Assembly (NCBI GenBank): GCA_035712365.1
Contig: DASTAW010000048.1
Location: 248,001-312,000, forward strand
DNA: 64,000 bases
Origin: Terriglobia bacterium
GTDB taxonomy: Bacteria; Acidobacteriota; Terriglobia; UBA7540
Reading direction: 5' to 3'
Each line of letters opens with the position of its first letter. The stretch's first letter is position 1. Below, in pieces: positions 4,423-21,485 of the stretch. A program made the translations under genes and the position numbers. Below the pieces are notes generated by a model. It made no database searches. It saw only the letters and a list, made by a program, of their open reading frames with translations, and was not told where the DNA came from.

Positions 4423-6903
4423 CTACATTAGACTCGCCGGGTCCATGTCGATCGTCAGCGCATGTGACGGCACGCCCCACTGGCCGCACTCTTCCGCCAG
4501 CCGCCGAAGGATCGCGTTCAGTCTCGCGCGCGATGACGCCTTCAGCAGAAACTGGATGCGATAGAACCCTTCAATTCTGGCCAGCGGCGCGGGGCTGGGT
4601 CCCAGGATGCGAACTCCGCGAACCATGTCACCCAAACCCTCGAAGAACCTTCCAACCTCCGCCGCTAACTGCGCTGCGTGTTCGAGCCTCTTGTCCTGCA
4701 CCACGACATCAGCGAGCGCGGCGGCCGGAGGATAGTGCATCATGCGGCGAAAGTGTAATTCCTTGTTGAAGAACTTGCTGTAATTTTGTTCGGCGGCAAA
4801 TCGGATTGCGTAATGCTCCGGGTAGAAAGTCTGGACGAGCACCCTGCCGGGCGATTCGCCGCGCCCCGCGCGTCCCGCTGCCTGCGTCAAAAGCTGAAAC
4901 GTCCGCTCAGCAGCGCGAAAATCCGGCAGCGAAAGGGAAGTATCAGCGGAAACAATGCCCACCAGCGTCACGCCTGGGAAATCGTGCCCTTTGGCGATCA
5001 TCTGGGTCCCGACCAGGATATCAATTTTCCCTCCCCGAAAATCCGACAGGATTTTAAGGTACTGGCCCGGCCGCCGGGCTGCGTCGCGGTCGAGCCTTGC
5101 CACCCGTGCTGTGGGAAACATTTCGGCGAGCTTTTGTTCCAGCTTCTCTGTTCCTTCCCCGACATAATGCAGGTGTTCACTGCCGCACGACCGGCAGCGC
5201 GCCGGCACAGACGCCTGATAGCCGCAGTAGTGGCAGATCAGGCGGTTTTCACGCCGGTGATAGGTCAGTGAGATCGAGCAGTTTACGCATCGTTCCGTTT
5301 GTCCGCAGCTTCGGCAAAGCAGGAACCAGGAATAGCCGCGACGGTTAAGGAGAAACATGGTCTGTTGTCCGGCTCGCAGCTTGGCTTCCACCTCCTCCCT
5401 CAAGCGGCGCGAGATAGGCGCCTGCGTCTGCGTCTGCCGGAACTCTTCCCGCATGTCGATGATCTCCACGCGGGCAAGCGGGCGCCGGCCCACACGCTCG
5501 CTCAGCGTCACCTTGTGGTATTTCCCTTTTTCCGCGTTGGCGTAGCTTTCAAGCGACGGCGTGGCAGACCCGAGAACGACAAGCGCTTTCGACAACCGCG
5601 CGCGCACAACGGCCGTGTCCCGCCCATGATAACGCGGCGTCTGTTCCTGTTTGTAGCCGGATTCATGCTCTTCGTCCACGATGATGACGCCCAGGTTTTC
5701 CAGTGGAGCAAACACGGCGGAGCGCGTTCCCAGCACGACGCGGGCCTCGCCACGCCGCACGCGCCACCAGGCGTCGTGGCGCTGGCCCTCGGCAAGGCCG
5801 CTGTGCAACACGGCCATGGCGCTTCCGAAGCGCAGCCGAAACTGCTCGTGAAGGGCCGGAGTCAAAGCGATTTCTGGCACAAGAATCAAGGCGGTCTTAC
5901 CGGATTCAAGGCAGCTCTCAACCAGCCGCATGTAGATTTCCGTCTTGCCGCTTGCCGTGATGCCATGCAGCAACACGACGCTGAACTCGCCGCGATGCAG
6001 GCGATCCGTCAGATCTTCGAGAGCCAGTCTTTGGCATTCTGTCAGCGTGTGGCGAAATTCGGAAACCCCAGCGGGCTTGACATCTCCATCCACAGGATCG
6101 GTAAACTCGATCAATCCCTGCTCGTGCAGTTTCTCCAGGTGGGCCATGGAGCCGCGCGTGGATTTCAAAAGCTCCCGATGGTCGTTTATCTCTCCAGCGC
6201 GGCCGAGTTCCTCGATAATGCGGCGGGCCACCGGTGAGAGCTTCGTCGGCCCGCCGCCCAGAGGACCCGCAATACGGACGGCCATCACCTTTCTTTCGCG
6301 GCGTTCGCGCTCGACGCTCGCAATTTCCAGGAGGCGTTTCTCAATCGCCTGGCGGACAAGGCCGGGTGAAGTGGCTTCAAACCTCAGGCGTAGCGATTCA
6401 AGAGTTACTGCCGGGTGGTCTGACACATGCTTTAACAGCTTCAGCTCGGCGCTCTGCCGGGCTTCTTCCAGCAGGCTGTGTGACATCTCGCCCAGACGTT
6501 TTCGCCCCGTCTCCGTCAACCGAACTACCCGGACCCTGCGGGAGTGCGACCGCAAAGGCAGCATGGCGCGGAACACTTCACCAAGCGGCGAGACGTAGTA
6601 TTCTGCAATCCACAATCCCAGCGTCAGGAGTTCCGGCGAAAGCACCGGCTCGGGATCAAGCGCCTGAATTACCGGCCGCGCGTCAATGCCGGGGGGCAAC
6701 GGTGGAGCAGCGGCAACCGCGATGCCTGTGGCGCGTCGCGCGCCCACGGGAACCAGCACTCTCTGGCCGATCCGAATGTTCAGCGTTTCCGGCACAGAAT
6801 AGGTGAGCGGCCGCTGCAATGCTGCCAGCACGGCCACGTTCACCAGTGTGGGTCTGGATTTACTGCGGCGGCTGGTTTTCGGCCTGGATTGGGATTCACC
6901 CAT
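4423..6903 (-). CDS. priA: Primosomal protein N' (PriA helicase)
   Basis: A superfamily 2 DNA helicase of 826 residues that reloads the replisome at collapsed forks. Domain order is visible: an N-terminal 3'-DNA-binding barrel (YSVPETLNIRIGQRVLVPVG), the winged helix, then the helicase core. The core has Walker A LLHGITASGKTEIY near residue 330, the DEEH box VIIVDEEHESGYKQE, and motif III GSATPSLESY. Eight zinc-binding cysteines follow as CxxC pairs between about 540 and 590 (CRSCGQ, CVNC, CHYC, CRSC). A GTQMIAKGHDFPGVTLVG motif and an AGRAGR arginine-finger region close the core. Walker A has Ile-Thr-Ala in place of the more common Val-Thr-Gly, which should not matter. It stands alone on the minus strand. 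Confidence 0.96.
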   Translation of the reverse strand: MGESQSRPKTSRRSKSRPTLVNVAVLAALQRPLTYSVPETLNIRIGQRVLVPVGARRATGIAVAAAPPLPPGIDARPVIQALDPEPVLSPELLTLGLWIAEYYVSPLGEVFRAMLPLRSHSRRVRVVRLTETGRKRLGEMSHSLLEEARQSAELKLLKHVSDHPAVTLESLRLRFEATSPGLVRQAIEKRLLEIASVERERRERKVMAVRIAGPLGGGPTKLSPVARRIIEELGRAGEINDHRELLKSTRGSMAHLEKLHEQGLIEFTDPVDGDVKPAGVSEFRHTLTECQRLALEDLTDRLHRGEFSVVLLHGITASGKTEIYMRLVESCLESGKTALILVPEIALTPALHEQFRLRFGSAMAVLHSGLAEGQRHDAWWRVRRGEARVVLGTRSAVFAPLENLGVIIVDEEHESGYKQEQTPRYHGRDTAVVRARLSKALVVLGSATPSLESYANAEKGKYHKVTLSERVGRRPLARVEIIDMREEFRQTQTQAPISRRLREEVEAKLRAGQQTMFLLNRRGYSWFLLCRSCGQTERCVNCSISLTYHRRENRLICHYCGYQASVPARCRSCGSEHLHYVGEGTEKLEQKLAEMFPTARVARLDRDAARRPGQYLKILSDFRGGKIDILVGTQMIAKGHDFPGVTLVGIVSADTSLSLPDFRAAERTFQLLTQAAGRAGRGESPGRVLVQTFYPEHYAIRFAAEQNYSKFFNKELHFRRMMHYPPAAALADVVVQDKRLEHAAQLAAEVGRFFEGLGDMVRGVRILGPSPAPLARIEGFYRIQFLLKASSRARLNAILRRLAEECGQWGVPSHALTIDMDPASLM

Positions 6904-18655: not shown

Positions 18656-18784
18656 CCGGCGTCCTACCCACAGGCTGGAGAGCCCGCCGGGCGCGGAAAA
18701 TAAAATCTTAATCTTCGCGAGAAGCGAAGTCAAGCTGCGAGGCCGCGCACGGCACGGCACCGGCTATCCGCCGCCGGCATTTTT

Positions 18785-18827
18785 ACAGTTCGCAACTGTC
18801 GCCCCCACGGCATGGAAGCCATGCCGT
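18785..18827. repeat. Two adjacent perfect hairpins in the 334-bp gap before the methyltransferase gene
   Basis: ACAGTT-CGC-AACTGT (18785-18799) is followed by ACGGCATGG-AAG-CCATGCCGT (18807-18827), a perfect 9-bp stem. They lie in the intergenic stretch 18,656-18,989, which otherwise holds no gene that I can support. An extended -10-like TGTTAGAAT ends at 18968, shortly before the methyltransferase start. Confidence 0.6.
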
Positions 18828-18989
18828 TTGCGGGAACAGCTTTTCAAGCCATCGCAGCGAACTTTCACTCCTAACTTTCATTCATTAATCAGTCTTGGTC
18901 TGCCGATTATGCTAATCGGAGGGTTGGGTATGGGACACGCCGTGAGCGCGAGTCAATTTCTGTTAGAATACTGCACTGGCGGACATCCA

Positions 18990-19544
18990 ATGAACGGCAA
19001 TGGCAACGGCAACGGTTCGTACCGGCCGCTCAGCAGTGTGTGGGAGGGAACGGATGGTGAGCTCCTTGAGGCCATCTTCCGCTTTTACCCGACCATTCCG
19101 GTTGAGCCGATATTGGACTCTACGCATAACGCCGGCCGGTTCTGGAAAGGGTCCAAGCGGCGCGTCGTTTCGATGGATATAGACCCGCAATACAGGCCGA
19201 AGATCGTCGCGGATAATCGGATTATGAAAGGGGTCAGGTCTTCCCAATTTGGCGCCATCGTCTACGATCCGCCGCATGTAGGGCCTCAACGACGGGATAA
19301 GAGCCGCAAGCGTTTCGATGTGGATTTCGGAGCTTTCGTGGAATGCGGCAAGGAGCAAGACTGGAATCTGAGCTACCTCTATCCACCCTTTCTGAAACAA
19401 GCCAGGCGCGTCCTGAAGCCGAACGGGCTCCTGCTCGCCAAGATCACGGACAAGGTGAACAACCACAAGTCCAAGTGGCCGCACTGTGACTTTGGCTTGA
19501 GGCTGCTCCATGCGAGACCCCCCTCTGCCTTTTCAGCGGTGTGA
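18990..19544 (+). CDS. DNA methyltransferase-like protein with DPPH motif, C-terminally truncated
   Basis: An SAM-dependent methyltransferase of the phage-associated type. It begins MNGNGNGNGSYRPLSSVWEG; PILDSTHNAGRFWKG replaces the usual SAM-binding loop, MDIDPQYRPKIVADN holds the acidic residue for SAM ribose, and IVYDPPHVG is the catalytic DPPx motif. FNLSYLYPPF-type (here WNLSYLYPPF) and LKPNGLLLAKITD blocks follow. After KWPHCDF the protein ends in 16 unrelated residues, whereas relatives I recall continue with 50-60 more residues. It is therefore probably broken and inactive. ATG at 18990 matches the usual N-terminus. An in-frame ATG at 18930 has a better GGAGGG Shine-Dalgarno and is an alternative start. 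Confidence 0.75.
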   Translation: MNGNGNGNGSYRPLSSVWEGTDGELLEAIFRFYPTIPVEPILDSTHNAGRFWKGSKRRVVSMDIDPQYRPKIVADNRIMKGVRSSQFGAIVYDPPHVGPQRRDKSRKRFDVDFGAFVECGKEQDWNLSYLYPPFLKQARRVLKPNGLLLAKITDKVNNHKSKWPHCDFGLRLLHARPPSAFSAV

Positions 19545-19593
19545 GAACAAAGGTTCAGCGCGACGGCTGTCCATCCGCACTCGGAGGTTCTCC

Positions 19594-19902
19594 ATGAGGT
19601 ATTTAGCGCTCGGTGTAGACAGAGATGACTGCGGATTCGACCCGCCGAGCCTTGGAATCTTTTACATCGAAGCGCCTAATTGGCGAAAGGCCCGAGACGC
19701 AGCGGAGAAGCGTGACAAGAATTTTCTTTGCGTCGGATGCCTGGACGCTGCTCGCTTGCGGGAGCTCGCGGACGAAGTTGAGGGGCTGAGGCCGCACATA
19801 ATAGTCAGGGACTCGCCTCGGGGCGAAAGGCGGCGTCCGAAGGTGGGTCCACCTCCCCGGGAGCCAAACCCCGGTCGTCAGCGCAGAAGGGGACGCCGGT
19901 AA
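19594..19902 (+). CDS. Small protein of unknown function in accessory island
   Basis: A 102-residue product, supported by GGAGG six bases before the ATG at 19594 and by being the only long frame in this stretch. The first 70 residues (YLALGVDRDDCGFDPPSLGIFYIEAP, KNFLCVGCLDAARLRELADEVEGL) look like a compact alpha/beta domain. The last 30 are a Pro/Arg-rich basic tail ending in RRRGRR. I do not recognise the family. It lies between a truncated methyltransferase and a convergent HNH nuclease, so it may be a nuclease-island accessory protein, but nothing in the sequence proves a role. Confidence 0.5.
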   Translation: MRYLALGVDRDDCGFDPPSLGIFYIEAPNWRKARDAAEKRDKNFLCVGCLDAARLRELADEVEGLRPHIIVRDSPRGERRRPKVGPPPREPNPGRQRRRGRR

Positions 19903-19981
19903 CGTCGGCTCCTTAGTAGAGGGCGGAACCGAAAGCGAGAGGGGCGTAATGCCAGAAGCAACCCACTGATCCCGGGGGAAT

Positions 19982-20899
19982 TCATTCCCAAATACGGTTT
20001 CGAGCGGGTCCCTTCCGGGCTTGGGAGAACGCGAGAGCAAGCAACAATGCGAGCCCCACCCTTCGGACCGGGTCATGAGCGAGGGTCTGCCGGATCCGGA
20101 AGCGCTTGCCGTTAATGGTTACTCCAACAAGCCAGTTCCCAATCCACTTAAGGTCGGTTATCTCGGCGTGCTCGAATTGGGCATGACAGTTGGGACACAC
20201 CACCAGCAGGTTGGTCGGATGGTGCCCCAGATTCGGGTCAAGGTGGTGGACTTCAAAGTAGGGTTCGCCGTCCCTCATCTGAAATGTAAATGAGCAGATC
20301 TGACACTTTCCACTGTACAGCTCCCGAAGCAATACCCGGATACCTGGCGGCGTGCTTGCGCGCCGGCCCGCTGCCGCTACAGCCGTTTCGGGGCGCGGAC
20401 GCCGTTCGGAGGATTGTGCGATTCGTAAAAGTTCGCCCTGAGCCACCTCGCTCAGTCTCCGTCGAGTGAGCTTAGCCAGCGCGCCCAATTGACGGTACGC
20501 CTCAGGGTCAGATGGCGCGCTGTGCAGGCTCCGCCGGGCCTTCTGCTCTTCTTGTTCCTGCAGATAACGGTCCAGCGATACGCGATAGAGAAGTGCGCTT
20601 CGGTCCTCGACCGATATCGAGATCAGGTCACCCTCACGCACGCCCCTAGAGGAGAACCACCTTCCCAAGCCGAATATTCGGCTTTCCTTTGCCGAGGTGT
20701 CATATGGACGAAAGGTGAGGCCCCTTGCGCGCTCTTCGTCGTCGAAAGCGACCTGTATCTCTCGTGTGTCAGGCGGGAACCAACTGTCGAACTTGCGCGG
20801 TATCGCCAGCAGCCCCTTCGCGAGGCGACTAGATGTCGCGGTGATCGTGAAACTTTTCTGTCGAACCCGCCGGCCGCCCGCCTTGCTGTTCGAGTCCAT
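19982..20899 (-). CDS. HNH endonuclease with B3-like N-terminal DNA-binding domain
   Basis: A 305-residue protein. Residues 15-110 read ITATSSRLAKGLLAIPRKF, WFPPDTREIQVAFDDE, SRIFGLGRWFSSRGVREGDLISI, closely following the pattern of the B3/EcoRII-N DNA-binding pseudobarrel (IP..F, GW..F....L..GD). The C-terminal part is an HNH nuclease: CQICSF and CPNCHAQFEHA give the zinc-binding CxxC pairs, FEVHHLDPN carries the catalytic His, and HHPTNLLVVC the Asn. Such a protein may recognise a specific or modified DNA site and cut it, like type II or type IV restriction enzymes. The gene is 29 bp downstream of the Eco29kI-like nuclease gene on the same strand. The B3 assignment is by pattern only. Confidence 0.75.
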   Translation of the reverse strand: MDSNSKAGGRRVRQKSFTITATSSRLAKGLLAIPRKFDSWFPPDTREIQVAFDDEERARGLTFRPYDTSAKESRIFGLGRWFSSRGVREGDLISISVEDRSALLYRVSLDRYLQEQEEQKARRSLHSAPSDPEAYRQLGALAKLTRRRLSEVAQGELLRIAQSSERRPRPETAVAAAGRRASTPPGIRVLLRELYSGKCQICSFTFQMRDGEPYFEVHHLDPNLGHHPTNLLVVCPNCHAQFEHAEITDLKWIGNWLVGVTINGKRFRIRQTLAHDPVRRVGLALLLALAFSQARKGPARNRIWE

Positions 20900-20928
20900 T
20901 GGTGTCCATTAAAAGATATACGCCGATT

Positions 20929-21351
20929 TCAGTCAGATGAGTCGGGCCGCTGAACTGCGGGACATTCGCCCCTTCCTTCAGAGAATGCCTCTCCTATGTT
21001 GGCAAGCTCCGCTGCGAACACCCACCACTCGCTTTTAAAGATCAGATATCGGCACTTCATATCGGCGAGGGATATGTTTCTCCTGTCCTGGATTTTTCCG
21101 ACGTGCTCGACAAAGCGTGTGCGGAGAGTGTGCTTGCTTTTGGTGGTTCCCTTAGACGCCTTGCCCACATAAACCAGTTTTCCCTTATAGTAGAGCGCGT
21201 ATATGCCGCTCTCCTGCGGGCCGACATCTTTGGTAAGCGGCAATAATGGGCTGGACTCCAACTTTTCAACGACTTGCTCGCGGATTCCACGATCAAGATC
21301 AAAATCAAAAAAATGCGGGTTCTCGGTCGGATCAGGCATAGCGGCCCGCAT
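20929..21351 (-). CDS. Eco29kI-like GIY-YIG restriction endonuclease, C-terminally truncated
   Basis: A 140-residue protein resembling the Eco29kI family of type II restriction enzymes: FDFDLDRGIREQVVEKLESS at the N-terminus, SGIYALYYKGKLVYVGKA as the GIY-YIG motif with both tyrosines, and LRTRFVEHVGKI with the catalytic Arg and His. ISLADMKCRYLIFKSEWWVFAAE supplies the metal-binding Glu. Eco29kI itself is over 200 residues, and the C-terminal region with the expected PxWN-type Asn is absent; the last 20 residues do not match. It is therefore probably inactive. No intact cognate cytosine methyltransferase lies nearby. Start codon choice (21351 or 21339) is open. Confidence 0.7.
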   Translation of the reverse strand: MRAAMPDPTENPHFFDFDLDRGIREQVVEKLESSPLLPLTKDVGPQESGIYALYYKGKLVYVGKASKGTTKSKHTLRTRFVEHVGKIQDRRNISLADMKCRYLIFKSEWWVFAAELANIGEAFSEGRGECPAVQRPDSSD

Positions 21352-21485
21352 ATTATCACAGATAACGAGGGTGGAACTGACCGCCGGGGCTGCGGTTTCT
21401 CAGACACTAAACGGTGACATATCAGCAATTCATTGAAAACAGGTGTCTTATCACGTCCTGCCGCCGCTTTCTGGCGGCAATCACT

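Follow-up and report, generated by a model that had tools for sequence, protein, structure and literature searches.

A predicted B3-HNH nuclease gene among the remains of an Eco29kI-like restriction-modification module in a Terriglobia genome

In the restriction enzymes EcoRII, BfiI, UbaLAI and LlaJI, the B3 domain reads a specific DNA sequence rather than a modification, and it is combined with PD-(D/E)XK, PLD or AAA+ partners. A different plan is found in VcaM4I (EVE-HNH), TagI (SRA-HNH) and EcoKMcrA (NEco-HNH), which are proteins of about 290-310 residues with an N-terminal reader, a helical linker and a C-terminal Cys4 HNH nuclease, and which have no partner methyltransferase. The GIY-YIG fold occurs in a further group of restriction enzymes, represented by Eco29kI and Cfr42I. 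Restriction genes may also be lodged within other systems, as in the mcrBC units that occur as inserts in restriction-modification (R-M) complexes (PMC2614495, Fukuda 2008).

The locus described here lies in a window of 64,000 nucleotides, the whole stretch of DNA analysed, from the genome of a Terriglobia bacterium. It codes for an HNH protein that shares the size range and domain order of the above HNH enzymes, and the arrangement of reader, linker helices and HNH described for VcaM4I (PMC7897488); like them it has no partner methyltransferase, and its HNH region is homologous to those of EcoKMcrA and TagI. Unlike these three enzymes, its reader is a predicted B3 pseudobarrel, not an SRA, EVE or NEco domain, it bears an additional hydrophobic C-terminal helix, and its modification dependence is putative. 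With EcoRII, BfiI, UbaLAI and LlaJI.R1 it has in common the B3 fold as the DNA-reading domain, whereas the partner domain is HNH. As with the McrBC inserts, a putative restriction gene lies as an insert in an R-M complex, but here it is a single B3-HNH gene rather than a motor nuclease, and both of the R-M genes have lost their 3' ends. In our view the protein belongs to a known kind of enzyme but combines its domains in a new way, and its mechanism is one that we infer; no B3-HNH enzyme was found in the literature searched.

The gene is carried on an island of 2.67 kb (18749-21417), located between an msbA-like gene and a ROK/glucokinase gene. The island is missing from both same-genus genomes (G002, locus L051, and G001, locus L052), in which the flanks are contiguous, being only about 25-30 bp apart. 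By this empty-site comparison, the island exceeds the 2.4 kb (18990-21351) assigned to it in an earlier note on this DNA. It contains four ORFs: a methyltransferase-like (MT) fragment and a 102-codon ORF on the forward strand, followed by the HNH and GIY-YIG genes on the reverse strand. No terminal inverted repeats or target duplications of at least 14 nt were detected at the island ends or at two of the other HNH loci (L035 and L038), although shorter duplications could be missed, and the island contains no Rfam match. The empty site in two same-genus genomes and the presence of intact homologues elsewhere support the view of an inactivated R-M pair on an acquired island, which the earlier note took for a mobile defence island. 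The description of the island as decayed applies to two of its four genes, which are truncated, and not to the HNH gene, which is intact; the island is thus acquired and half-dead, with a dead R-M pair and a surviving HNH nuclease gene.

The MT fragment (18933-19493, forward strand; the start may be at 18993) is the 5' part of an amino-methyltransferase-like gene with a DPPH motif. It matches phrog_24333 (E 8.5e-11), and its identity with the intact L030 protein is 82% across residues 8-166 of 223, after which homology is absent; the suggested truncation after KWPHCDF proved exact, in that homology to the intact relatives stops precisely there, at 19493. A second gene of this MT family is present elsewhere in the same genome (G000:C33:75037-75507), with an open frame and 45% identity.

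The GIY-YIG gene (20929-21351, reverse strand; homologous part 21001-21351) is truncated at its 3' end as well. Its product scores 31.6 bits against the Pfam family RE_Eco29kI (cut-off 30.8), a family that its intact relatives also match, and it is 66-73% identical to the intact GIY-YIG protein of L027. Homology stops at 21001, such that about 30 residues are missing, among them the Asn of a PEWN motif (the counterpart of the catalytic N154 of Eco29kI) and the tail SGFGSxxPGxGRPG, which leaves the Eco29kI-like catalytic set incomplete. In Eco29kI, the N154L substitution leaves about 10% of the activity (PMC1952068). The loss amounts to a fifth of the protein; the C-terminal third originally proposed was an overestimate, because the intact relatives are only 144-152 residues long. 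These relatives differ from Eco29kI and Cfr42I in being shorter and in converging with the amino-methyltransferase-like gene, and the copy in the window differs further in its truncation and its lack of the N154 counterpart.

In the relatives, the MT (about 220-245 residues) and GIY-YIG genes are intact and convergent. Such HNH-free pairs abut directly or enclose only a 98-codon gene (L027-L030 and L032; the 98-codon gene lies between the two in L027, L029 and L030), and the intact MT2 of L032 has 448 residues. In the window, both genes are truncated, and the intact MT and intact endonuclease of a Type II R-M system are therefore lacking. The 98-residue protein encoded after the MT in intact modules (L030 3584-3880, L029 784-1080, L033 6455-6751) is basic (pI about 10), matches no Pfam family above its cut-off, and is possibly a component or regulator of the MT/GIY-YIG system. 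Decay of the family is also seen where the HNH gene is absent: L033 (6008-7700) has an in-frame TAG in the GIY-YIG gene and a split MT2, and in L031 (15686-16222) just the last 28 MT codons were detected beside a second GIY-YIG gene.

Compared with the intact relatives, the MT and GIY-YIG genes of the window both lack their 3' ends, and in place of these stands a segment of 1.5 kb (19494-21000), bounded by the end of MT homology at 19493 and that of GIY-YIG homology at 21001. The limits of this segment are not those of the HNH gene, since 101 nt and 488 nt of unassigned DNA separate the gene from the two break points. The segment also includes the 102-codon ORF (19594-19902, forward strand), which codes for a basic product (pI 10.2). 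The earlier note regarded it as a gene with a strong ribosome binding site, and the ORF and an upstream GGAGG are indeed present; it may nevertheless not be a real gene, because no relatives were found in 151 genomes, Pfam, PHROGs, PADLOC, NCBIfam or viral contigs.

The HNH gene (19982-20899, reverse strand) codes for a predicted nuclease of 305 residues. An AF2 model, built on an alignment (A2) of the six full-length members of the family, agrees with the suggestion that its N-terminus fits the B3/EcoRII-N pseudobarrel. The region of residues 14-112 (20564-20860) is modelled with a pLDDT of about 92 (best Foldseek E 1.4e-5), and its fold, of the plant-type B3 kind, matches solved B3 domains, with structural Z scores of 11.7 for FUS3, 9.6 for LlaJI.R1, 9.5 for BfiI, 7.1 for UbaLAI and 6.5 for EcoRII. 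The HNH region (residues 185-262; 20114-20347) is poorly modelled (pLDDT about 50), and its assignment to the McrA/TagI type comes from homology: 22.2 bits against the Pfam HNH family (cut-off 21.4), and phmmer matches to EcoKMcrA (E 4e-6) and TagI (E 3e-4). The H-N-H residues (H218/H219, N230 and H239) and two CxxC pairs are invariant in all six members. The hydrophobic helix at the C-terminus (residues 277-295; 20015-20071), also present in all six, may serve in membrane contact or dimerisation.

A scan of 84,980 species genomes yielded five loci, which together with the window give six distinct full-length members, five from Acidobacteriota (window included) and one from Planctomycetes (Planctomycetales). 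No further full-length members were found in phages, plasmids, viral contigs or up to 399 class-level and 396 phylum-level genomes; plasmid and phage matches span the HNH part only, and in the 399 class-level genomes a B3 domain of this type was seen only joined to this HNH. The ORF is intact in every member, with omega values of 0.06-0.14 where dS could be estimated, and the family is under purifying selection. The HNH protein had been viewed as part of the decay, or as a further restriction enzyme belonging to that system; neither view is supported, since the protein is intact and under purifying selection, and has apparently replaced the R-M genes.

All six B3-HNH genes adjoin fragments, or one lone gene, of the same R-M family, and the neighbourhood expected by the earlier note is thereby recovered in other genomes: in five of the six loci the nuclease adjoins broken pieces of such genes, and in the sixth (L039) a lone gene resembling the 98-codon one directly follows the HNH gene. 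The remains in the window are those of GIY-A and MT, both truncated. In L035, the GIY-B gene ends after PEWN, about 25 nt before the HNH gene, and MT2 homology stops at the stop codon of a downstream ORF of 85 codons. Residues 1-53 of GIY-B lie beside the HNH gene in L041, a divergent, 5'-truncated C-terminal half of an Eco29kI-like gene is found in L038, and in L040 an MT fragment stops some 5 nt short of the HNH start. By the searches made, none of the six HNH genes adjoins an intact MT or GIY-YIG gene. The GIY-YIG core is intact in eight of the nine HNH-free loci but in none of the four that carry HNH (Fisher p 0.007); a strict count gives seven of nine (p 0.02), that is, two of the nine HNH-free loci are damaged too, and with so few loci both p values are rough. 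The adjacency estimate is likewise rough, as it assumes random placement, and the six loci come mostly from unfinished metagenome assemblies in which some contigs end nearby.

The explanation that we favour, with moderate confidence, is that the MT/GIY-YIG module was killed by a segment carrying a B3-HNH, stand-alone restriction-like nuclease, most likely Type IV-like, which repeatedly replaces such R-M genes. The convergent 3' ends of the module, and anything between them, would have been replaced, probably by illegitimate recombination, by an incoming segment that bore the intact nuclease gene. In the encoded protein, the B3 domain would read the DNA and the C-terminal HNH, beyond the helical linker, would cut it. 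The nuclease would be modification-dependent, with B3 standing in for SRA, EVE or NEco, and its gene would repeatedly take over the place of R-M genes of this family. There is precedent for such replacement in the mcrBC inserts noted above, and in a published conflict between an R-M system and an HNH enzyme that depends on methylation and has no methylase close by (PMC8989522).

Selection-limited decay would account for much of the same evidence. The HNH gene would once have belonged to a larger R-M island with several defence genes, and R-M genes that were no longer needed would have been lost by deletions reaching as far as the selected HNH gene, with no replacement or mobility. The break points often fall only a few nucleotides from the HNH start or from the stop of the 85-codon ORF, as expected if deletions that cross into these genes are lost; the six intact HNH genes and the missing terminal repeats are in keeping with this as well. 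This account is simpler and explains the edges nearly as well, but it leaves unexplained the position of the segment between convergent genes: the HNH-free pairs abut or hold only the 98-codon gene, and the HNH segment thus had to enter between them. Furthermore, no locus was found with intact R-M genes together with HNH, and several kinds of R-M gene (GIY-A, GIY-B, GIY-C, MT and MT2) are affected. We regard decay of this sort as possible, if rather unlikely.

The modification dependence that forms part of the replacement account is most likely because no locus of the six keeps an intact adjacent MT that could protect a Type II-type site. The adjacent MT is broken in the window, L035 and L040, and none was detected beside HNH at the other loci; next to HNH, Pfam N6_N4_Mtase was matched only by the truncated MT2 of L035, and C5 methylases were found in only two of the six genomes. 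By these searches, the lack of an intact adjacent methyltransferase, as in Type IV enzymes, is common to all six. The fold does not in itself imply such dependence, since the predicted domain is of the B3 kind, which in the characterised restriction enzymes reads sequence and is not an established modification reader. A protecting methylase could also act in trans, because elsewhere in the genome of the window there are several N6/N4 methylases and one of the C5 type.

A sequence-specific, Type II-like B3-HNH enzyme is accordingly conceivable, having replaced GIY-YIG as the partner of the MT or being restrained, where present, by the product of the 85-codon ORF. This ORF lies 3' of HNH in L035 (4821-5078), L041 (6936-7193) and L038 (1815-2069), is confined to HNH-bearing genomes among 151 searched, and codes for an acidic protein (net charge -11), the nuclease being basic (net +11 to +16). 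Against this, the adjacent MT genes are broken or undetected, as described, and no relative of the 85-codon ORF was detected in the window island or in L040; we find the proposal distinctly unlikely. Least probable of all is a homing-type mobile gene whose product would cleave R-M genes so that the gene is copied into them. HNH is common in homing nucleases, and at several loci the gene lies against broken R-M genes of a single kind; yet of each broken gene just one part was recovered rather than both halves around an insert, the break points vary in gene and codon, and neither a common target sequence nor terminal repeats came to light.

The protein brings together a predicted B3 reader and an HNH cutter, both familiar from restriction biology, in a pairing on which no paper was found, and six natural loci have a restriction-like nuclease standing on the remains of one R-M family. 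Two questions can thereby be put to the test: can a B3 domain act as a sensor of DNA modification, and are R-M systems displaced by stand-alone nucleases because the two are incompatible? A bolder reading, tentative and on present evidence unlikely, is that the B3-HNH proteins form a new class of restriction enzyme that senses modification, with the sensor being the B3 fold, known for reading sequence in plants and in restriction enzymes; such enzymes would survive by displacing one R-M family at its own loci, a conflict between R-M and Type IV systems recorded in the genome.

Some minor features of the other HNH loci may be added. The 85-residue protein, which might at a guess be an antidote, is predicted to be alpha/beta, and a fold search gave nothing convincing (best Z 6.1). 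An ORF of 78 codons upstream of HNH in L039 was considered as a member of the same family and rejected (19% identity, hhalign probability 0.4). No match was found for an ORF of 180 codons downstream in L038, which for this reason is not claimed to be truncated. In L041, a palindromic repeat-like sequence (cattcccgtttgcgcgggaatga) lies at about 5885-5915, between the remaining piece of GIY-YIG and the HNH gene.
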